Shown: one piece after another, positions 1 through 7,039 of the stretch
How positions within the stretch are numbered: the first letter of the stretch is position 1
Layout: each line of letters starts with the position of its first letter
NCBI GenBank assembly: GCA_021802375.1
Contig: JAKAAL010000207.1
Coordinates: forward strand, 1 to 7,039
Direction: 5' to 3'
DNA length: 7,039 bases
From: Bacillota bacterium
GTDB lineage: Bacteria; Bacillota_E; Sulfobacillia; Sulfobacillales; Sulfobacillaceae
The notes under the pieces: generated by a model
Told to the model about the DNA's origin: nothing
Seen by the model: the letters and a program-made list of their open reading frames with translations, nothing else
The model's database searches: none
Made by a program: the position numbers and the translations under genes

Positions 1-76
1 CGTTTGAGGTTCGGATGCCAAGAGGTTCAAAAGCTCGGAGTTAACCGGCAAGTGTGGGCCGGTTCCCACCAACACC
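1..76 (-). repeat. Left arm of a 76-bp perfect inverted repeat (chimeric end)
   Basis: The reverse complement of 1-76 is identical to 2010-2085. The match runs to the first base of the window and breaks at 77 (A on the minus strand against T at 2009). The copied segment is internal hydrolase coding sequence. At the junction the Pol I and hydrolase reading frames happen to be in phase, so no stop codon flags the error. It is most likely a fold-back or template-switch join rather than a biological repeat. Confidence 0.95.
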
Positions 77-1674
77 TTCTCCACTAAAGGATGTAATGGG
101 GCTAATTGCTCTAGGGTTTCGGCATCCGTCGAGAATCCTGTTTTGGTTTTCTTAAGGGCGGGTAAGTTTAATTGGTTGAATAGAATGTCCCCGAGTTGCG
201 ACGGGGAATTAATGTTAAACTCGCGTCCAGCTAAATCATAAATTTCTTCGGAGAGCTTGGCGATGGCCTTTTCGAGCTCTTGCCCCAAAGATTCTAAGCG
301 TTCTCGATCGACCGAAATCCCGGTGGACTCCATCCGAGCTAACACGGCCATGAGGGGTAACTCCACAGTCCGATAGAGATCTTCTAGTTCTTTCCCTAAA
401 ATTTCTTGCCGTTGCTCATCGACCATCGCCTCGATGACAGCAAGCCTGGTACCCACGTCCGAGATCTCATAGCCACGGGATCCGGCGACGTCGTCGAGTT
501 CATACTTACCGGATTCTGCGTTGAGCAAATAAGCTTGGATTTTCCCATCCTCGACCACGCTCAGTTCGGGATTGCCCCGCCTATCACGTTGCCTGAGCAC
601 CTCTTTGCCGCCCCAAGCCACCACCTTTAGTGGGGTCGAGAGGTCTTCCCACTGTACCTCCGCGTAAATCCGACTCTCGGTATCCAAAATCCAGAGTGTC
701 TGGTTCGGCTCCATCCACAGTACATAGGAGCCATCGACGTCCAGCGGTCCTAGAATGCCCTTTGTCACGGATAAGGTGGTCTTGTTGGAATTCTTTGCCG
801 GAGAAACCGCTACGGATGGCGCCAATCGCCGGCGGAGACTAGCCAGCTGATAGCGATCTAATAGCCCGATGACATCCCGCGTCGCTTCGACCTGAAATGG
901 CTCGGCTACGGTAGGCCAGCTAATTGGGGCGTTGACCACGATTGTGGCCAAATCCCGTGAGGTTCTCGCTTCATCTTCATGCCCGATCAATAAATTGCGC
1001 CATCGCGTATTGGTAACTTGGGACAGGTTTTCCAAGAGTCGATCCAGCGAGCCAAATTGTTCCAGGAGCGCTTGAGCAGACTTGGGCCCAATCCCAGCTA
1101 CCCCGGGAATATTATCAGAACTATCCCCCATCAGGCCCTTGAGGTCGGGCACTTGTCCCGGATCGACCCCCATTTTTTGGCGCACCCGGTCTCTATCCAT
1201 ACGGTCCACGTCGGTACCGGTGCGTGCGGTGAGCAACACCGTGATGTGGTCATCGACCAATTGCAACAGATCGCGATCCCCCGTCATAATTTCTGTCCTG
1301 TAGTGTCGTTCCCGACCCATCTCGGCCAGCGTGCCCAAAATATCGTCCGCCTCGAATCCGGGAACGGAAAGCACCGGAATGTGCAACGCGGCAAGAATTT
1401 CCTGGACCACACTGACCTGGGGGCGAAAGTCTTCGGGAGTCTCTTGTCGAGTGCCTTTATATGCGGCGTACTGCTCATGCCGAAATGTTTTCGCCGGGGC
1501 ATCAAATGCGACGATCAGTCGATCCGGCCGCTCGTTATCAGCCACCTTAAACAACATGCTAAAAAATCCGTGGACGGCGCCGGTCGGTACCCCATCTTGA
1601 GTGGTTAAGGGGGGTAACGCATGATACGCCCGGAATAAGAGGCTATGTCCGTCAATCAGCAACTGGCTTGCCAT
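1..1674 (-). CDS. polA: DNA polymerase I, N-terminal part (partial, chimeric end)
   Basis: The start ATG at 1674 follows AAGGAG (1684-1689) with a 9-base spacer. The frame is open for 558 codons to the window edge, while Pol I is usually about 870-890 residues. Residues 1-260 are the 5'-3' flap nuclease: IDGHSLLFRAYHAL with Asp8, AFDAP with Asp58, E108-A-D110-D111, GD133RD135 and MGD184SSD187N followed by the helix-hairpin-helix GIGPKSA. Residues about 300-420 correspond to the 3'-5' exonuclease fold, but the acidic DEDD residues are missing (YVLWMEP where FDTE is expected), so proofreading is probably absent, as in Bacillus-type enzymes. The polymerase domain begins at about 430 (RMESTGISVD, NINSPSQL, KKTKTGFSTDAE). 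The role is Okazaki primer removal and repair synthesis. After Lys533 the protein reads VLVGTGPHLPVN, which belongs to the hydrolase encoded at 1756-2430, so residues from about 534-537 onward are not Pol I. The palm and catalytic aspartates lie outside the window. Confidence 0.95.
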   Translation of the reverse strand, partial: MASQLLIDGHSLLFRAYHALPPLTTQDGVPTGAVHGFFSMLFKVADNERPDRLIVAFDAPAKTFRHEQYAAYKGTRQETPEDFRPQVSVVQEILAALHIPVLSVPGFEADDILGTLAEMGRERHYRTEIMTGDRDLLQLVDDHITVLLTARTGTDVDRMDRDRVRQKMGVDPGQVPDLKGLMGDSSDNIPGVAGIGPKSAQALLEQFGSLDRLLENLSQVTNTRWRNLLIGHEDEARTSRDLATIVVNAPISWPTVAEPFQVEATRDVIGLLDRYQLASLRRRLAPSVAVSPAKNSNKTTLSVTKGILGPLDVDGSYVLWMEPNQTLWILDTESRIYAEVQWEDLSTPLKVVAWGGKEVLRQRDRRGNPELSVVEDGKIQAYLLNAESGKYELDDVAGSRGYEISDVGTRLAVIEAMVDEQRQEILGKELEDLYRTVELPLMAVLARMESTGISVDRERLESLGQELEKAIAKLSEEIYDLAGREFNINSPSQLGDILFNQLNLPALKKTKTGFSTDAETLEQLAPLHPLVEKVLVGTGPHLPVNSELLNLLASEPQT

Positions 1675-1692
1675 CGTGGAGGGCTCCTTCAA

Positions 1693-1722
1693 TGATATAG
1701 TCTATGGTAGCAAGAAATACAA
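1693..1722. promoter_or_regulatory. Probable overlapping divergent promoters, polA and hydrolase
   Basis: On the plus strand there is an extended -10 (TGATATAGT, 1693-1701) without a good -35 at 1673-1678; it would start hydrolase mRNA near 1708. On the minus strand TTGTAT (1717-1722) lies 17 bases from TATATC (1694-1699), which would serve polA. The two -10 elements overlap. Both are weak matches, and the call rests mainly on their position between two divergent genes that each have a good ribosome-binding site. Confidence 0.3.
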
Positions 1723-1755
1723 GGTTCAACAAGAATCAGTAAAGGAGTGTATGTT

Positions 1756-2430
1756 TTGACGCACTGGACCTTTCTCCATGGGGCAGCATCCAATCATCGG
1801 ACCTGGTCTCGCCAACATCGGCTTGCAATGGAAAAATGGGTACCCGATCTGCCGACCCTAAACCACACCACGCCGGCCCATCTCATTAACCAATTGGCCG
1901 ACTGGTGCGCATCCTCGCTCCTCGAGCCCAGCGTCGTGGTGGGGCATTCCATGGGGGGCGCCATCGCCCAAACCATGGCCCTGAACCATCCGGATCGGGT
2001 TTTAGCTTTGGTGTTGGTGGGAACCGGCCCACACTTGCCGGTTAACTCCGAGCTTTTGAACCTCTTGGCATCCGAACCTCAAACGGCCCTGGAAAAAATT
2101 ACACGGTGGTCACTGAGTCGATCGGCGGACCCCAGCTTGGTCGCGGCGAGTCTCGAAATGGCTAGCAGCGTCCCGGCCAGCCGGGCTCTTCAGGAGTTCA
2201 CGGCGTGCCAGTTCTTTGATGTCCGGCATCGTCTTGGTGACATAACTTGTCCGAAATTTGTGATCCGAGGGGCTGAAGATAAAATGACGCCCGAAGTGCT
2301 ATCCCGGTCGTTTATAGAGGCTTGGCCCGATACGCCCGTGTATACCATTCCCGATGCCGGCCATCTCATGATGCTCGAACAACCCGCATTATTTAATGAG
2401 GTGTTGGAGACGATAAGCAGACAAATATAA
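1756..2430 (+). CDS. Alpha/beta-hydrolase family protein
   Basis: This is a 224-residue serine hydrolase of the alpha/beta fold. The start is taken as TTG 1756, because AAAGGAG (1741-1747) sits 8 bases before it. The earlier in-frame GTG at 1747 overlaps that site, and ATG 1751 is in another frame with a stop two codons later. Visible motifs are the oxyanion-hole segment FLHGAASNH (residues 6-14), the nucleophile elbow GHSMGG with Ser65, GAEDKM with Asp175 and DAGHLM with His203, giving a complete Ser-Asp-His triad. There is no signal peptide, so it is cytoplasmic. The lid region (about 95-155) is short. The substrate cannot be read from sequence; esterase, lactonase and MenH/BioH-like roles are all possible. 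The gene lies 18 bases upstream of a membrane-protein gene and is probably co-transcribed with it. Bases 2010-2085 are the source of the inverted copy at the left window edge. Confidence 0.9.
   Translation: MTHWTFLHGAASNHRTWSRQHRLAMEKWVPDLPTLNHTTPAHLINQLADWCASSLLEPSVVVGHSMGGAIAQTMALNHPDRVLALVLVGTGPHLPVNSELLNLLASEPQTALEKITRWSLSRSADPSLVAASLEMASSVPASRALQEFTACQFFDVRHRLGDITCPKFVIRGAEDKMTPEVLSRSFIEAWPDTPVYTIPDAGHLMMLEQPALFNEVLETISRQI
2010..2085 (+). repeat. Right arm (native copy) of the 76-bp inverted repeat
   Basis: It is identical to the reverse complement of 1-76. Here it encodes VLVGTGPHLPVNSELL and onward, in its natural place after the hydrolase nucleophile elbow, so this copy is the original. 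Its first ten bases (GGTGTTGGTG) could be the microhomology that joined it to polA. Confidence 0.95.
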
Positions 2431-2448
2431 ATCGAGGAGAGCCTTTAG

Positions 2449-2736
2449 GTGGTAACTTTCGCCCAGCGGATGGCTAAAACCAGTCTCACGGCCTGCGCCT
2501 GGTCGGCTTTGGGTCTTGGGGCAGTTCTCGTTCTATTAGCGGCTGCGAACTTTCCTCGTATTCAGCCAACCATGGTGGGTGAGGGACTTCTCGGTGCTGG
2601 GCTCGCTTGGAGCCTACTGAGCCTAGCACGTCGAAAGCATGACCCGACTCACCCCGAGGATTCTTACTTCATAGCCATTCTAGTTACTACCGTAACCTGT
2701 GGCAGCGTCGCCTGGCTCATCTCGCTTCTCCGATAA
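2449..2736 (+). CDS. Small three-helix membrane protein, unknown function
   Basis: The protein has 95 residues and begins at GTG 2449, with GAGGAGA (2434-2440) 8 bases upstream. I do not recognise a family. Three hydrophobic segments are visible: about 13-33 (ACAWSALGLGAVLVLLAAA), 44-60 (GEGLLGAGLAWSLLSLA) and 73-92 (YFIAILVTTVTCGSVAWLIS). A basic RRKH sits after helix 2 and an acidic/His/Pro stretch (HDPTHPED) lies between helices 2 and 3. It is probably an inner-membrane protein without an enzymatic domain. It follows the hydrolase with an 18-base gap, which suggests one operon. Its TAA stop (2734-2736) overlaps the T-tract of the terminator that serves the convergent tRNA gene. Confidence 0.75.
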   Translation: MVTFAQRMAKTSLTACAWSALGLGAVLVLLAAANFPRIQPTMVGEGLLGAGLAWSLLSLARRKHDPTHPEDSYFIAILVTTVTCGSVAWLISLLR

Positions 2737-2765
2737 AAATGAGGAAAGTCCTGAGACTTTCCTCA
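2735..2765 (-). terminator. Intrinsic terminator of tRNA-Leu
   Basis: The perfect arms GAGGAAAGTC (2741-2750) and GACTTTCCTC (2755-2764) enclose a 4-base loop, and a T-A pair extends the stem to 11 bp. Read on the minus strand it ends in ATTTTT (2740-2735), directly downstream of the tRNA. On the plus strand the stem is followed by AAAAATTT, so it would be weak for the hydrolase operon. Confidence 0.8.
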
Positions 2766-2771
2766 AAAATT

Positions 2772-2859
2772 TGGTGCCGAAGGCCGGACTTGAACCGGCA
2801 CGTGGGATCACCACACGCGATTTTGAGTCGCGCGCGTCTGCCTATTCCGCCACTTCGGC
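2772..2859 (-). tRNA. tRNA-Leu (anticodon CAA)
   Basis: The 88-nt class II tRNA folds fully. The acceptor is GCCGAAG/CTTCGGC with discriminator A and an encoded CCA. The D stem is GCG/CGC, and the anticodon stem CGCGA/TCGCG has loop CTCAAAA (anticodon CAA, reading UUG). The long variable arm (GTGG/CCAC) is typical of leucine tRNA. The T arm is GCCGG-TTCAAGT-CCGGC. It is transcribed alone, with its own promoter and terminator, convergent to the hydrolase operon. No duplicated 3' end of the tRNA, which would mark an integrated element, is seen in the window. Confidence 0.97.
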
Positions 2860-2871
2860 AACGCCTCACGT

Positions 2872-2900
2872 AGTATACCATGGCCGTGTGGTTTGTTCAA
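2872..2900 (-). promoter_or_regulatory. Sigma-70/sigma-A promoter of tRNA-Leu
   Basis: On the minus strand TTGAAC (2895-2900) and TATACT (2872-2877) are separated by exactly 17 bases. This places the start near 2865, a few bases before the mature tRNA 5' end. It is the best promoter match in the window. Confidence 0.75.
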
Positions 2901-3348
2901 GGGCGCGTGTCAACACCACCCCAGACAATCATAGTTCGAGTTTCGCTCCGCGCATTCACAACAAATTTATGCTCTGCACAAAACGCCGAAACCCTTATGA
3001 AGACTGGTATTTTGGTGTAATTAGGCGTCAGCCAAATTACCCTAAAACGGAGTGCTATCATACGGCAGTCCCCGTCAGAAATCAAAAAGGTGTTCGATAA
3101 ACACCAGTATTCGATGTGATGCAGACCTTCAAGGTCATCTGACCTGCAGAACGACGGTCTTAACGTCTTGTCGCCCATGCTGTCGCAAAGGCCATGCATT
3201 GGCATTTATCGGGAAATTTCTGTAGTCTTTCGCCGCGGCACTTGCTCTACAGAGCGGCTAGAGGTAATGTTGCGAGTAGATTTGGTCGGCCTTAAGCGGT
3301 ATTCCCTTGCATCGGCTGACGGTACTTTCTGGAAAGCGGTGATGCCGT
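2901..3348. other. Intergenic region, no gene recognised
   Basis: No reading frame on either strand shows recognisable motifs. Visible structures are an imperfect hairpin with arms GTAATTAGGC (3017-3026) and GCCAAATTAC (3031-3040), 9 of 10 pairs with loop GTCA; a small hairpin GGTGTT/AACACC (3089-3094, 3100-3105); and two overlapping dyads, GACCTT-C-AAGGTC (3124-3136) and AGGTCA-TC-TGACCT (3132-3145). A weak promoter-like pair TTGCTC-17-TAATGT (3242-3270) faces the GGDEF gene. Confidence 0.5.
3124..3145. repeat. Overlapping GGTC dyads, possible operator
   Basis: GACCTT-C-AAGGTC (3124-3136) and AGGTCA-TC-TGACCT (3132-3145) share the central AGGTC. Both are perfect six-base dyads with 1- and 2-base spacers. 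They lie about 200 bases before the GGDEF gene, so a regulator site is possible, but nothing identifies the protein. Confidence 0.35.
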
Positions 3349-4293
3349 GTGTTTGCTTCCATTCCTCTAAGTGAGCTGGTGAGTCGACCGCTCGAAGAGC
3401 ATGCGAACAAGGTGTTAATGGTGTTAGCGGAGTTCCTTCGCATCAACACCCTCTTCGTCGCAGTGAACGATGGCACGACCAATGTGATTATTGCTAGTCG
3501 GAATCAAAGCACAATTCTTGTGGAGCCCGGGCATGCACCGCTGGCGGAGGCATACTGTCGGGTTGTTGTCGAGGATCGCCAATACGTTGAAATTCCCGAC
3601 ACCACTCACAACCGGCGGACGACCAATTTGCCCCCGACGCACCGACTCGGACCAACGACGTTCTTTGGCGTTCCTCTGGTTTTGCGCGACGGGCGCGTCG
3701 TCGGGACCTTATGTGGCATGGATACTGCGGGAGTGCGGGTCACATCACAGCAACGGATGTTGCTGGACACTATGGCGGAGTTCCTAGGATTCGTGTTTGA
3801 ACTGGAATGGCAGTCATACGCCGATGCCCTAACGGGACTTGGGAACCGTCGTTATATGGACTGGTTTTTGAACGAGGATTCGGTGGCAACAGAGACCAAG
3901 AGCGTCGTATTCTGTGATATGGATAATCTTAAGCCGATCAATGAGATGTGGGGTCACGCCGCAGGGGATCAAGCGATTCGATTGTTGGCCGACCAGTTGG
4001 AGCAGGTGTTCGGGAAGCACGGGTTGGTGTGCCGATCCGGTGGCGACGAGTTCGTGGTTCTCTTGCCCGGAACTCCCGGTCGGGATGCCTACGTCATGGC
4101 GCAGCAGGTTCACGAGGCGCTCCATCGAATGGTGTTGTCCGGAGCAGAAAACACCCCGGTGAGTATCACAATGGGCGTGGCGTCGACCGCCGATTCTGCC
4201 GTTGGATGGCGTGATGTCGTGCGTCGAGCGGACGCTGTGCTACTCGAGACGAAGCATGCGGACAAGGGGACCGTCGTATGGACCGTCATCTGA
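3349..4293 (+). CDS. GAF-GGDEF diguanylate cyclase
   Basis: The protein has 314 residues and makes c-di-GMP from two GTP. The start is GTG 3349, since an in-frame TGA ends at 3342. The ribosome-binding site is poor (GGAAAG, 12 bases away), so a later start (GTG 3379) is not excluded. Residues about 18-150 form a GAF sensor domain (FFGVPLVLRDGRVVGTLCGMD), with no transmembrane segment, so it senses a cytoplasmic signal. The cyclase domain runs from D159ALTGLGNRR to the end. Asp190 in DMDNLK (metal), Asn198 and Asp207 (guanine contacts by PleD alignment) and the intact SGGDEF (230-235) indicate activity. The allosteric I-site RxxD expected at 222-225 is GKHG, so canonical product inhibition should be absent. 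The C-terminal motif is divergent (ADAVLLETKHADKG instead of ADxALYxAKxxGRN). Its end overlaps a small convergent ORF by 8 bases. Confidence 0.93.
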   Translation: MFASIPLSELVSRPLEEHANKVLMVLAEFLRINTLFVAVNDGTTNVIIASRNQSTILVEPGHAPLAEAYCRVVVEDRQYVEIPDTTHNRRTTNLPPTHRLGPTTFFGVPLVLRDGRVVGTLCGMDTAGVRVTSQQRMLLDTMAEFLGFVFELEWQSYADALTGLGNRRYMDWFLNEDSVATETKSVVFCDMDNLKPINEMWGHAAGDQAIRLLADQLEQVFGKHGLVCRSGGDEFVVLLPGTPGRDAYVMAQQVHEALHRMVLSGAENTPVSITMGVASTADSAVGWRDVVRRADAVLLETKHADKGTVVWTVI

Positions 4294-4417
4294 TGTTATC
4301 AGCCGTCTGAGAGGCCTTACGGGATTCTACTGCAATTGGAGTTTCGGCAATGGCTGTGCTATTTGTCGACTTTTCGGCATTGAGAGCAAGTCCAAGAACA
4401 TGCTCAACGATGCGCAT
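4286..4417 (-). CDS. Small ORF or gene remnant, 43 residues, unknown
   Basis: The ORF begins at ATG 4417, with AAGAGGA (4429-4435) 11 bases upstream, and ends in TGA over the last bases of the GGDEF gene. The product starts MRIVEHVLGLALNAEK and is rich in Ala, Ser and Thr, with a balanced protein-like composition. The same frame is open 22 codons further upstream (RTQRVLGDFAKRKAKW) to a TAG, so it may instead be the C-terminal end of a decayed gene. Its start overlaps the stop of the small ORF upstream by 14 bases, compatible with translational coupling. I do not recognise a family. An ORF this short can arise by chance. Confidence 0.25.
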   Translation of the reverse strand: MRIVEHVLGLALNAEKSTNSTAIAETPIAVESRKASQTADNIR

Positions 4418-4514
4418 CCACTTCGCTTTCCTCTTTGCAAAGTCTCCAAGCACACGTTGTGTTCTCGTCAGGGCTATTTTTGTCTAATGACAGCTTAGCC
4501 TGCCGGTATGCCAA
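4404..4514 (-). CDS. Small ORF, 36 residues, good ribosome-binding site, unknown
   Basis: TTG 4514 is preceded by AAAGGA (4522-4527) with a 7-base spacer, as good a site as those of the real genes here. The product is hydrophilic (LAYRQAKLSLDKNSPDEN, then two cysteines in CAWRLC) and ends in TGA overlapping the start of the next small ORF. No domain or signal peptide is visible. Tandem small coupled ORFs would suit a small peptide system, but chance or decay is equally possible. Confidence 0.2.
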   Translation of the reverse strand: MAYRQAKLSLDKNSPDENTTCAWRLCKEESEVDAHR

Positions 4515-4546
4515 CCCCTAGTCCTTTCCGTAATATTTTGTCTATT
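4475..4546. repeat. Short AT-rich direct repeat, imperfect
   Basis: TATTTTTGTCTAATGA starting near 4475 and TATTTTGTCTATTAGA near 4534 are similar in sequence and orientation. They flank the start of the upstream small ORF. The role is unknown and chance is possible. Confidence 0.25.
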
Positions 4547-4619
4547 AGATCGAATAAATTTCCGTTTTTGATATGCAGAGTCTAAGTTTTAACCCCCGTT
4601 GGGGCACCTCGTGGCTGGC

Positions 4620-4675
4620 GAGCTATGCTATTTCACTATTTCATAGAATGCGAATAGCCGTGATAGCTCCTTTTT
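4620..4675 (+). terminator. Nested hairpin with T-run, probable terminator
   Basis: The 5' side GAGCTATGCTATT (4620-4632) pairs in two blocks: GCTATT with AATAGC (4653-4658) and GAGCTAT with ATAGCTC (4663-4669), leaving a 4-base bulge. A third mini-stem CTAT-TTC-ATAG lies in the loop. CTTTTT follows at 4670-4675 on the plus strand. It could end the GGDEF transcript, 330 bases after its stop, or an RNA from 4294-4620. Confidence 0.5.
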
Positions 4676-4739
4676 GATATAGACTACTCCCCGAGATGGG
4701 CGTTGCTCCCTGACATGACCTGTCGGTCACTGTACGCAA

Positions 4740-5130
4740 AGACACACGATAATCCCTGGCCGTCAAATAGACCAGCGTTATGTTCCCCGAACCGTCGGGA
4801 CCGAGGGGCTGATGCGTGCCAATACGCGTCTTCGGGCCACCACCGGCGCGCAACCTGGTGGTCCCGCATTCGCCGGTGCATTAATCCAGGCCTTGCCGGC
4901 TCCAGTGGCACTACCCAAAAGGGGTTAATTCATTTGGGCATAGGCTTGGCTGAAATGGCTGCCACTAGGCCATGGTCATCGGCTAAGGCGATTGGGATGA
5001 TTCCGCCGCAATAATCCCACACGCTCCGTCGCAAGAGGGGCGTGTAGCCGTGAGACGGTAAGTATGGCATTAGCGAAGGGGCTGGTGCTCGCGGGAATAT
5101 TGTTGGCCGCTAACGCTATTTGTCATCACT
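4740..5130 (+). pseudogene. Decayed MFS (DHA3-like) transporter fragment
   Basis: In the frame beginning at 4740 the translation contains YVPRTVGTEGLMRANTRLRA followed by TTGAQPGGPAFAGALIQALPAPVAL. This matches the conserved segment of DHA3-type exporters, where YLP..V....L..ANARL.AT....GPALAGALIQ.L.APVAL covers the loop before helix 5 and its Gly-Pro motif. The same frame continues through TAA 4926, FIWA, TAG 4941 and AWLKWLP (helix 6-like), then TGA 4998, and reaches MALAKGLVLAGILLAANAI (5064-5120), which fits helix 7. Spacing between these pieces agrees with an MFS protein. Three different in-frame stops rule out a working gene and make recoding unlikely. Both ends fade: the N-terminal helices are not found and the 3' end runs into the LysR gene tail. 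The family assignment is from memory of motifs, without a database check. Confidence 0.6.
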
Positions 5131-5181
5131 TCGGCTCACACAGCTGTCGTCAGATCCAGAGTTCGGGAGCATGGAATGCCA

Positions 5182-6066
5182 TCACGGGCCCGCCAAAATT
5201 GAGGGCGCCTTCTCCGTCACGTGGTGCCAGAGATCGTTGACCGGGGAGTGCACCAAGGCTCGTTCGCTCGTCACCGCATACACTGCCCGAGGCGGAATGG
5301 AAGATCCCAAACGGACCGGAATCTCCACTAATTGCCCTTGCCTAAGCTCGGCGTCTGCGAGCGCCCGAGGCATCCAGCCCACATAATTCCCCGACAACAG
5401 CATGGCGATTAAAAGTGGAGCCTGGTCGACTTGCACAGCCGGCATCCATCCCTCTAATTCTCGTTGGAACCATCCACTTAAGGGATCCCCCCAATTGAGA
5501 TAGGCAAGAGGCAGCTGTTTTAAGTCACTCGCGTCAAGTACCCGGGTCCCGGCCAATTGCGGAACACACAAGAACACCAGATCTTGTTGAGCTAACAACT
5601 TCGACAGTATCCCATGCTCCCCCGACGGAAAATAGGTAATGGCCACGTCGATCCCCCCATCCCGAACTCCAGCGAGTAGCTCTCCCGAATGTCCTGTGAG
5701 TAGTCGCCAGCTAATCTCCGGGTGATTCTTGGTCCAAGAGCTTAAGAGCGGGAGAATCCCCGATGACCATTGAGAATGAACCGAGCCCATCACCACATGC
5801 CGGCTAAAGCCCCGAGCATCCACGACCTCGCGCATCCTCTCAAAGAGGATGGATGCTCTCCCAAATAGATCCACTAGCTGTTTGCCCTCAACCGTGAGCA
5901 CGAGGCGGCGAGTAGTACGCTCCCAAATGGACACGCCAAGCTCTGCTTCGATTTGGCGAATACGTGCCGTAACCGTGGACTGCGTCACATTGAGCTCCTC
6001 GGCTGCCCGTGTAAACGATCCGGCCCGTTCCACGGCGAGTACAGTGAGAATGTGATCATGGTTCAT
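5182..6066 (-). CDS. LysR-type transcriptional regulator
   Basis: This 294-residue protein is of normal LysR length. The start ATG 6066 gives MNHDHILTVLAVERAGSFTRAA, the usual distance to the helix-turn-helix, with AAGGA (6078-6082) 11 bases upstream. The in-frame ATG 6078 would overlap that site. The winged helix-turn-helix spans about 3-62 (GSFTRAAEELNVTQSTVTARIRQIE; recognition helix QSTVTARI). The effector-binding domain covers about 85-290, with typical pieces such as GILPLLSSW and GGIDVAITYF. It likely binds DNA as a tetramer and responds to a small molecule that cannot be deduced. It is transcribed divergently from the transporter gene at 6173, the classic arrangement for a regulator and its target. 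Its 3' end faces the decayed transporter. Confidence 0.93.
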   Translation of the reverse strand: MNHDHILTVLAVERAGSFTRAAEELNVTQSTVTARIRQIEAELGVSIWERTTRRLVLTVEGKQLVDLFGRASILFERMREVVDARGFSRHVVMGSVHSQWSSGILPLLSSWTKNHPEISWRLLTGHSGELLAGVRDGGIDVAITYFPSGEHGILSKLLAQQDLVFLCVPQLAGTRVLDASDLKQLPLAYLNWGDPLSGWFQRELEGWMPAVQVDQAPLLIAMLLSGNYVGWMPRALADAELRQGQLVEIPVRLGSSIPPRAVYAVTSERALVHSPVNDLWHHVTEKAPSILAGP

Positions 6067-6086
6067 ATTTATCGTCATCCTTAATT

Positions 6087-6099
6087 AATTAGCCTAATT
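6087..6099. promoter_or_regulatory. Dyad AATTAG-C-CTAATT, candidate LysR operator
   Basis: This perfect 6-1-6 dyad is centred at 6093, near -50 relative to the predicted transporter start and between the two divergent promoters and the lysR start. LysR proteins bind AT-rich interrupted dyads at such places. The assignment is by position and symmetry only. Confidence 0.4.
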
Positions 6100-6105
6100 T
6101 ATCTC

Positions 6106-6136
6106 ATTTTACTTGACTGTGTGTGCCCTATACAAT
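6106..6136. promoter_or_regulatory. Face-to-face promoters of LysR gene and transporter
   Basis: Plus strand: TTTACT (6108-6113), 17 bases, TACAAT (6131-6136), starting near 6143 toward the transporter. Minus strand: TTGTAT (6130-6135), 18 bases, TAAAAT (6106-6111), toward the LysR gene. The -35 of each overlaps the -10 of the other, so polymerase could occupy only one at a time. Confidence 0.4.
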
Positions 6137-6172
6137 AGCAGAGACGGGAATCCTTTTAAGGAGCAACGCGCC

Positions 6173-7039
6173 ATGCAACCCCAATCGCTTCGTGCTTTCT
6201 ATTTCGGCTTAGCACTTATCTATGGTGCCGGCACCCTTTGGACCACCCTGTTGCTTTGGCAAGTGGTCATCCTCACCCACTCCAGTCTATTCGTGGCTAT
6301 TGCGGCCGGATCCAGCGTGGCCCCCGCCATTCTTGTAGGCGTGGCCGGACCGGATTGGGGATTCGGAGGACGAATGGGTCTCTGGCTCTTGGTCACGGGC
6401 ACGAGTCTAGCACTCCTCTCTCCCTGGCTCGTCCGGGTCCCAGCGTTGCTCATCACGATAGGACTTATCGAAGGGTGGATTAGTGCACGAGTCATTCCGA
6501 AGGCTCAGGCTTGGCTGATGTCTTATGTCACCCCGGTCCGCGTGGCAAATGCTTCGTCGAGATTTGAACTAGCATCGCGTGCGGGAATGGTGATGGGACC
6601 GCTCTTAGCAGGTGCGCTTATCACCACGGCAGGACCGCTGATGGCAATCTTGGCAACGGCTTCCCTCTTCTCGCTGTCGGGTGCACTGTGGTTTAGACTG
6701 GGTGACATCGACGCACCCCTTGCAATGCATAGAGCGCGCATCACTCCTTGGAAAGTCGTGTGGCGGGATGGCTTTCTAATGATGGCCTTGACGGTACGTG
6801 CCGGAGCTAACCTGCTTTGGCCCGCGTTCACCGTCGCCATTCCCCTCCTGATTCAGAGCCCTTGGCATGCCAAGGCCTTAGGCTATGGCACTATTCGGAC
6901 AATCTGGGGGCTAAGCACCGTGCTCGGGGCCTGGCTCGTCGTTCCCAGGCTTTTAAAACACCTCAAAGCATCTTACTTTCTGTCCTGGATCATCACCGGA
7001 CTAGCTTTTTGGCGCATTGGACTCTCCCCAAACCTTTCC
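6173..7039 (+). CDS. MFS-type transporter, N-terminal part (partial)
   Basis: ATG 6173 follows AAGGAG (6158-6163) with a 9-base spacer. The frame stays open for 289 codons to the right edge, while such proteins usually have about 400 residues. It is an integral membrane protein with many hydrophobic segments, for example FYFGLALIYGAGTLWTTLLL (9-28), LFVAIAAGSSVAPAILVGVAG (39-59), LWLLVTGTSLALLSPWLV (70-87) and GPLLAGALITTAGPLMAILA (141-160). SRFELASRAGMVMGPLLAG fits the helix-5 Gly-Pro segment of DHA3-like MFS exporters. A basic cytoplasmic loop (HRARITPWKVVWRDG, about 185-200) separates the two halves. The substrate is unknown; drug or metabolite efflux is a family-level guess. The divergent LysR regulator probably controls it. 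Confidence 0.85.
   Translation, partial: MQPQSLRAFYFGLALIYGAGTLWTTLLLWQVVILTHSSLFVAIAAGSSVAPAILVGVAGPDWGFGGRMGLWLLVTGTSLALLSPWLVRVPALLITIGLIEGWISARVIPKAQAWLMSYVTPVRVANASSRFELASRAGMVMGPLLAGALITTAGPLMAILATASLFSLSGALWFRLGDIDAPLAMHRARITPWKVVWRDGFLMMALTVRAGANLLWPAFTVAIPLLIQSPWHAKALGYGTIRTIWGLSTVLGAWLVVPRLLKHLKASYFLSWIITGLAFWRIGLSPNLS

Follow-up and report, generated by a model that had tools for sequence, protein, structure and literature searches.

The described structures closest to the one considered here are the inverted chimeras of multiple displacement amplification (MDA). Lasken and Stockwell (2007) reported that 406 of 475 MDA chimeras were inverted, that 337 of these 406 joined segments less than 10 kb apart, and that complementarity extended up to 21 bp (PMC1855051). 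For MDA chimeras, Tu et al. (2015) described distances of 0 to more than 5,000 nt, most commonly 250–300 nt, and overlaps mostly of 5–8 nt (PMC4595205). According to a further report, chimeric reads in phi29-amplified samples add false words to assembly graphs, which leads to small and chimeric contigs (PMC5015205), and fold-back molecules have been described in other library types as well (PMC12870357).

We analyzed a stretch of 7,039 nucleotides from Bacillota bacterium (hereafter the window, at its full length), whose left end carries a short inverted copy of a segment lying further inside it. Tandem inversion duplication in bacteria, reportedly described by Kugelberg et al. in 2010, likewise has an inverted-repeat joint and is possible in living cells; unlike it, the join considered here lies at the window edge. 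The window shares with MDA inverted chimeras the inverted orientation and the spacing of the parts (1.9 kb, thus below 10 kb), and it may also share a short common sequence at the join. However, those chimeras are known from reads, whereas the join in the window is known from assembled sequence alone, and its spacing is well above the commonest distance given by Tu et al. Long-read fold-back (duplicated-inversion) artefacts also place one strand and then opposite-strand sequence in a single molecule, but they are described as near-perfect concatemers of one site (PMC12870357), whereas the arms in the window lie 1,933 bases apart.

Self-comparison of the window revealed that positions 2010–2085 are the reverse complement of positions 1–76 with all 76 bases identical, as the first-pass annotation had stated; an inverted self-match of 77 bases was not found in the window. 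That annotation had also stressed that the identity runs exactly to the first base, which is correct and shows no more than that the window edge falls within the copy. The gap between the two arms is 1,933 nt. When the first 76 bases were removed, the longest exact inverted self-match in the window was 16 nt, and in 100 first-order Markov sequences of identical composition the longest matches measured 11–20 nt. The observed length is therefore far above chance, and a chance repeat was ruled out. The other inverted repeats in the window do not exceed 26 nt and are only 73–76% alike. Because the copy is unmutated compared with its source, it is recent or artificial, and the zero divergence over 76 bases is equally compatible with a recent real event.

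The copy (1–76, minus strand) follows polA in phase and extends to the window edge. The minus strand carries an open frame of 564 aa, which begins with TTG at 1692 and reaches this edge through the join; alignment with relatives (A1) places the polA start at ATG 1674. The native 5΄ part of polA (77–1692, minus strand) encodes both 5΄-3΄ exonuclease domains (Pfam PF02739 and PF01367) and the start of the DNA_pol_A domain, which is incomplete (positions 2–80 of the 381 in the PF00476 profile). The frame ends with ...PLVEKVLVGTGPHLPVNSELLNLLASEPQT, and its final residues, VLVGTGPHLPVNSELLNLLASEPQT, are those of the hydrolase, read in that gene's own frame; the join falls at residues 540–542. An automatic annotator would thus report polA as an open frame that carries 23–25 foreign residues at its end. 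The earlier observation that the join is in phase and leaves the frame open is accurate with regard to the frame, while the phase itself is unremarkable, given that it has a chance of one in three.

We compared the polA frame of the window with 16 stretches of 13 genomes using tblastn, three genomes being represented twice. Matches were obtained in 15 stretches of 12 genomes, and in all 12 the similarity stopped at residue 541 or 542; the stretch of G025, in which polA is cut after 44 residues, gave no match at E 1e-20. The comparison with polA of close relatives, which had been suggested together with the first reading, accordingly agrees with that reading: in all 12 genomes with an alignable polA, of the 13 compared, the similarity ends at the join. 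In the 12 relatives aligned in A1, the protein proceeds as HP(L/V/I)V(D/E)(K/H)(V/I)L(L/T/F)YRQ and on into a complete polymerase domain, in agreement with the earlier claim that a switch from Pol I to hydrolase replaces the normal YR segment. A polA match is present in 33 of the 34 genomes searched from the nearest genome's family, and in 31 cases it lies in an open frame of 851–942 aa. The other two end at contig edges: the match in G014 C368 begins at base 2 of a contig of 3,145 bases, whereas that in G025 C117 reaches 9392 of 9396. Neither of these two contigs contains an exact inverted copy of at least 15 nt of either of its ends. At the nucleotide level, blastn of the window against the 34 family genomes, mostly with eight candidates scored per genome, listed 65 matches in 30 of them; the leftmost begins at base 67, 11 begin at 67–80, and none of the 65 carries the join. 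Viral contigs gave no match to the join and none to the native hydrolase sequence, as expected for a bacterial chromosome.

The segment from which the copy derives lies in an alpha/beta-hydrolase gene (1747–2430, plus strand; Pfam Abhydrolase_6, E 4.3e-21), whose product is 78 and 77% identical over residues 1–227 to those of the two nearest genomes. A hydrolase match was found beside polA in 13 of 13 genomes (tblastn), and stretches of these 13 genomes also contain a match to the conserved neighbour tRNA-Leu(CAA) (2772–2859, minus strand) close to the hydrolase. The predicted polA, hydrolase and tRNA-Leu genes to the right of the join stand in the relatives' own order. The best alignment, to G008, covers window positions 71–2901 in one piece (72%), and the source segment (2010–2085, plus strand) lies within it and is uninterrupted in the hydrolase of L001. 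Because the relatives' hydrolase is uninterrupted and this alignment is continuous, the copy at 2010–2085 is the native one and that at 1–76 is out of place; gene order and alignment also indicate that the window from the join to about 2900 is ordinary chromosome, belonging to an uncultured bacterium related to Sulfobacillus-like Bacillota.

We further examined how many bases polA and the hydrolase gene have in common at the join. The first-pass annotation had proposed a microhomology of up to 10 bases, and ten bases would require a Val codon after the VL/IL pair of polA. Codons at this position were counted in 85 rows from 83 loci, including 25 rows from 13 family genomes. None of the 25 family rows had a Val codon there; the residue specified was Leu, Thr, Ala, Gly, Phe or Glu, and the single Val codon among the 85 rows came from outside the family. 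For example, the codons of one family relative (L086) at the join are GGTGTTGCTGTAT, the sequence of L086 reading AAGGTGTTGCTGTAT there. The overlap is therefore probably at most about 7 bases, namely GGTGTTG (70–76, minus strand), which is the probable longest microhomology common to both genes, with the join within or beside it. It may be even shorter, because third codon bases vary in relatives (GTC, GTT, GTA, AAA). Should the overlap be 7 bases, the probability of two random breakpoints having at least as many in common is about 4e-4. A total of 617 pairs of 7-base words match between polA and the plus strand of 1693–7039, and priming sites are thus plentiful.

Taken together, positions 1–76 very probably represent the beginning of a fold-back chimera of technical origin at a contig end, and this assessment rests mainly on the relatives and on the edge position of the copy. 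In this scenario, a 3΄ end would detach while being copied along polA, pair over a few bases (GGTGTTG, at most about 7) with the displaced strand of the hydrolase gene, which lies only 1.9 kb away, and be extended there, making polA continue as hydrolase sequence. The assembler would then follow reads of the chimeric molecule from polA into the hydrolase and stop on reaching the point at which the path merges with hydrolase sequence that the contig already contains; the window would in that case be a whole contig. Since fold-back molecules arise in other library types too, amplification is the most probable laboratory route but need not be the true one, and phi29-type amplification and another library step would have about even chances. 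The first-pass annotation had similarly attributed the contig end to amplification or assembly, which is consistent with the end of similarity to the relatives' polA at the join and with a geometry that fits amplification chimeras. The copy length of 76 would equal k–1 in an assembly graph of k = 77, which is plausible for some assemblers, and we did not use it as evidence. As an artefact, the chimeric end would matter for data hygiene only, and screening contigs for terminal inverted self-matches would catch ends such as this one.

We also considered the possibility that a recent inverted duplication is real and is present in some cells, arising by tandem inversion duplication or snap-back replication, with intact polA in other copies or cells. 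Template switching within cells would likewise be compatible with a short overlap and closely spaced parts, and such duplications need not break a gene. A snap-back of a few bases would, in the cells concerned, give a Pol I 5΄ nuclease with a hydrolase-derived tail; this, like the duplication itself, we consider unlikely. None of the 65 blastn matches in 30 of the 34 family genomes contains the join, and the position of the copy coincides exactly with the edge of the window. Moreover, an exact inverted copy of at least 15 nt within the same stretch was found for only 1 of 54 other contig ends, that of L070, where it pairs the contig's two ends, so that a terminal inverted copy is not usual in the compared genomes. 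The first reading had called a true inversion-duplication breaking an essential gene far less likely; the low likelihood stands, but 'essential gene' was an overstatement, because an intact polA could persist elsewhere after an inverted duplication, and some bacteria tolerate a Pol I that lacks the polymerase domain. If true, the duplication would add one more example of snap-back duplication and no new kind of system.

The contig of L070 is a metagenome contig in which positions 1–45 and 8839–8883 are exact inverted 45-nt copies, possibly another contig-end artefact. Exact inverted repeats of at least 40 nt were present in 3 of 108 loci (L070, L023 and L058, some loci overlapping), two of them inside the contig. 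With these frequencies, the terminal 76-base copy is uncommon, though precedented.

The protein data bear on the real duplication in another manner. The cluster to which the hydrolase belongs, P0242, occurs on two contigs, of which the longer has 47,790 bases, and no near-identical polA was listed beside that contig (none closer than 89% among the best 120 proteins listed, whose lengths were about 310–987 aa only). Consequently, the real duplication keeps a low level of likelihood. Either the window is a slice of the 47,790-base contig, or the same gene occurs in a second assembly that has no complete polA; if the window is a slice of a longer contig, the copy could run past base 1. A fork in an assembly graph, for its part, would predict that the lost C-terminal half of the window's polA exists as a separate partial protein. 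No such protein was found in a search of proteins 0.55–1.75 times the query length, in which the 7,998 with the most words in common with the query were scored; among the 120 hits listed, the best was 73% identical. The six proteins read from the source 'lgn' all begin with Met, and genes cut by contig ends may therefore be missing from it.

Even less probable is a simple inversion of the segment comprising the N-terminal parts of polA and the hydrolase, confined to part of the population and assembled together with the native arrangement. Mixed orientations would put the C-terminal part of the hydrolase on both sides of the segment, as is observed, whereas a pure inversion would leave it just once, and inversion alone was therefore rejected; only a mixture could explain the arrangement. 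We regard such a mixture as very unlikely, since the common word of at most about 7 bases is far below the length of the repeats at usual invertible sites, and no recombinase was identified among the six proteins scanned (Pfam).

The least probable of these alternatives is a stable, species-level rearrangement by which Pol I is truncated and its 5΄ nuclease acquires a foreign tail. In favour of this reading, the frame stays open up to the window edge and both exonuclease domains are kept; however, 31 of the 33 family polA matches are full-length frames, the other two being cut by contig ends, and the 12 relatives in alignment A1 keep the polymerase domain, so that we consider it highly improbable. 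A mobile element or invertible switch was rejected, with no recombinase in the six scanned proteins and no other inverted repeat longer than 26 nt.

We additionally noted several features in the remainder of the window. In the hydrolase gene, the region 1747–1828 is affected by the choice of start: the P0242 protein begins at ATG 1828 (200 aa), while relatives such as P0241 (MAHWTFLHG...) suggest a start some 24–27 residues further upstream, at TTG or GTG, and the 200-aa call accordingly looks truncated. Beyond about 2901, blastn gave no match in the compared relatives' stretches, most of which are short. The GAF-GGDEF protein encoded at 3349–4293 has an SGGDEF motif and is probably an active diguanylate cyclase. 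The interval 4294–5181 between the GGDEF and LysR genes, nearly 900 bases, contains short putative ORFs only, and no Rfam match reached the gathering threshold in it. Finally, positions 5182–7039 contain genes for a LysR-type regulator and an MFS-like transporter in divergent orientation, the latter being cut by the right edge of the window.
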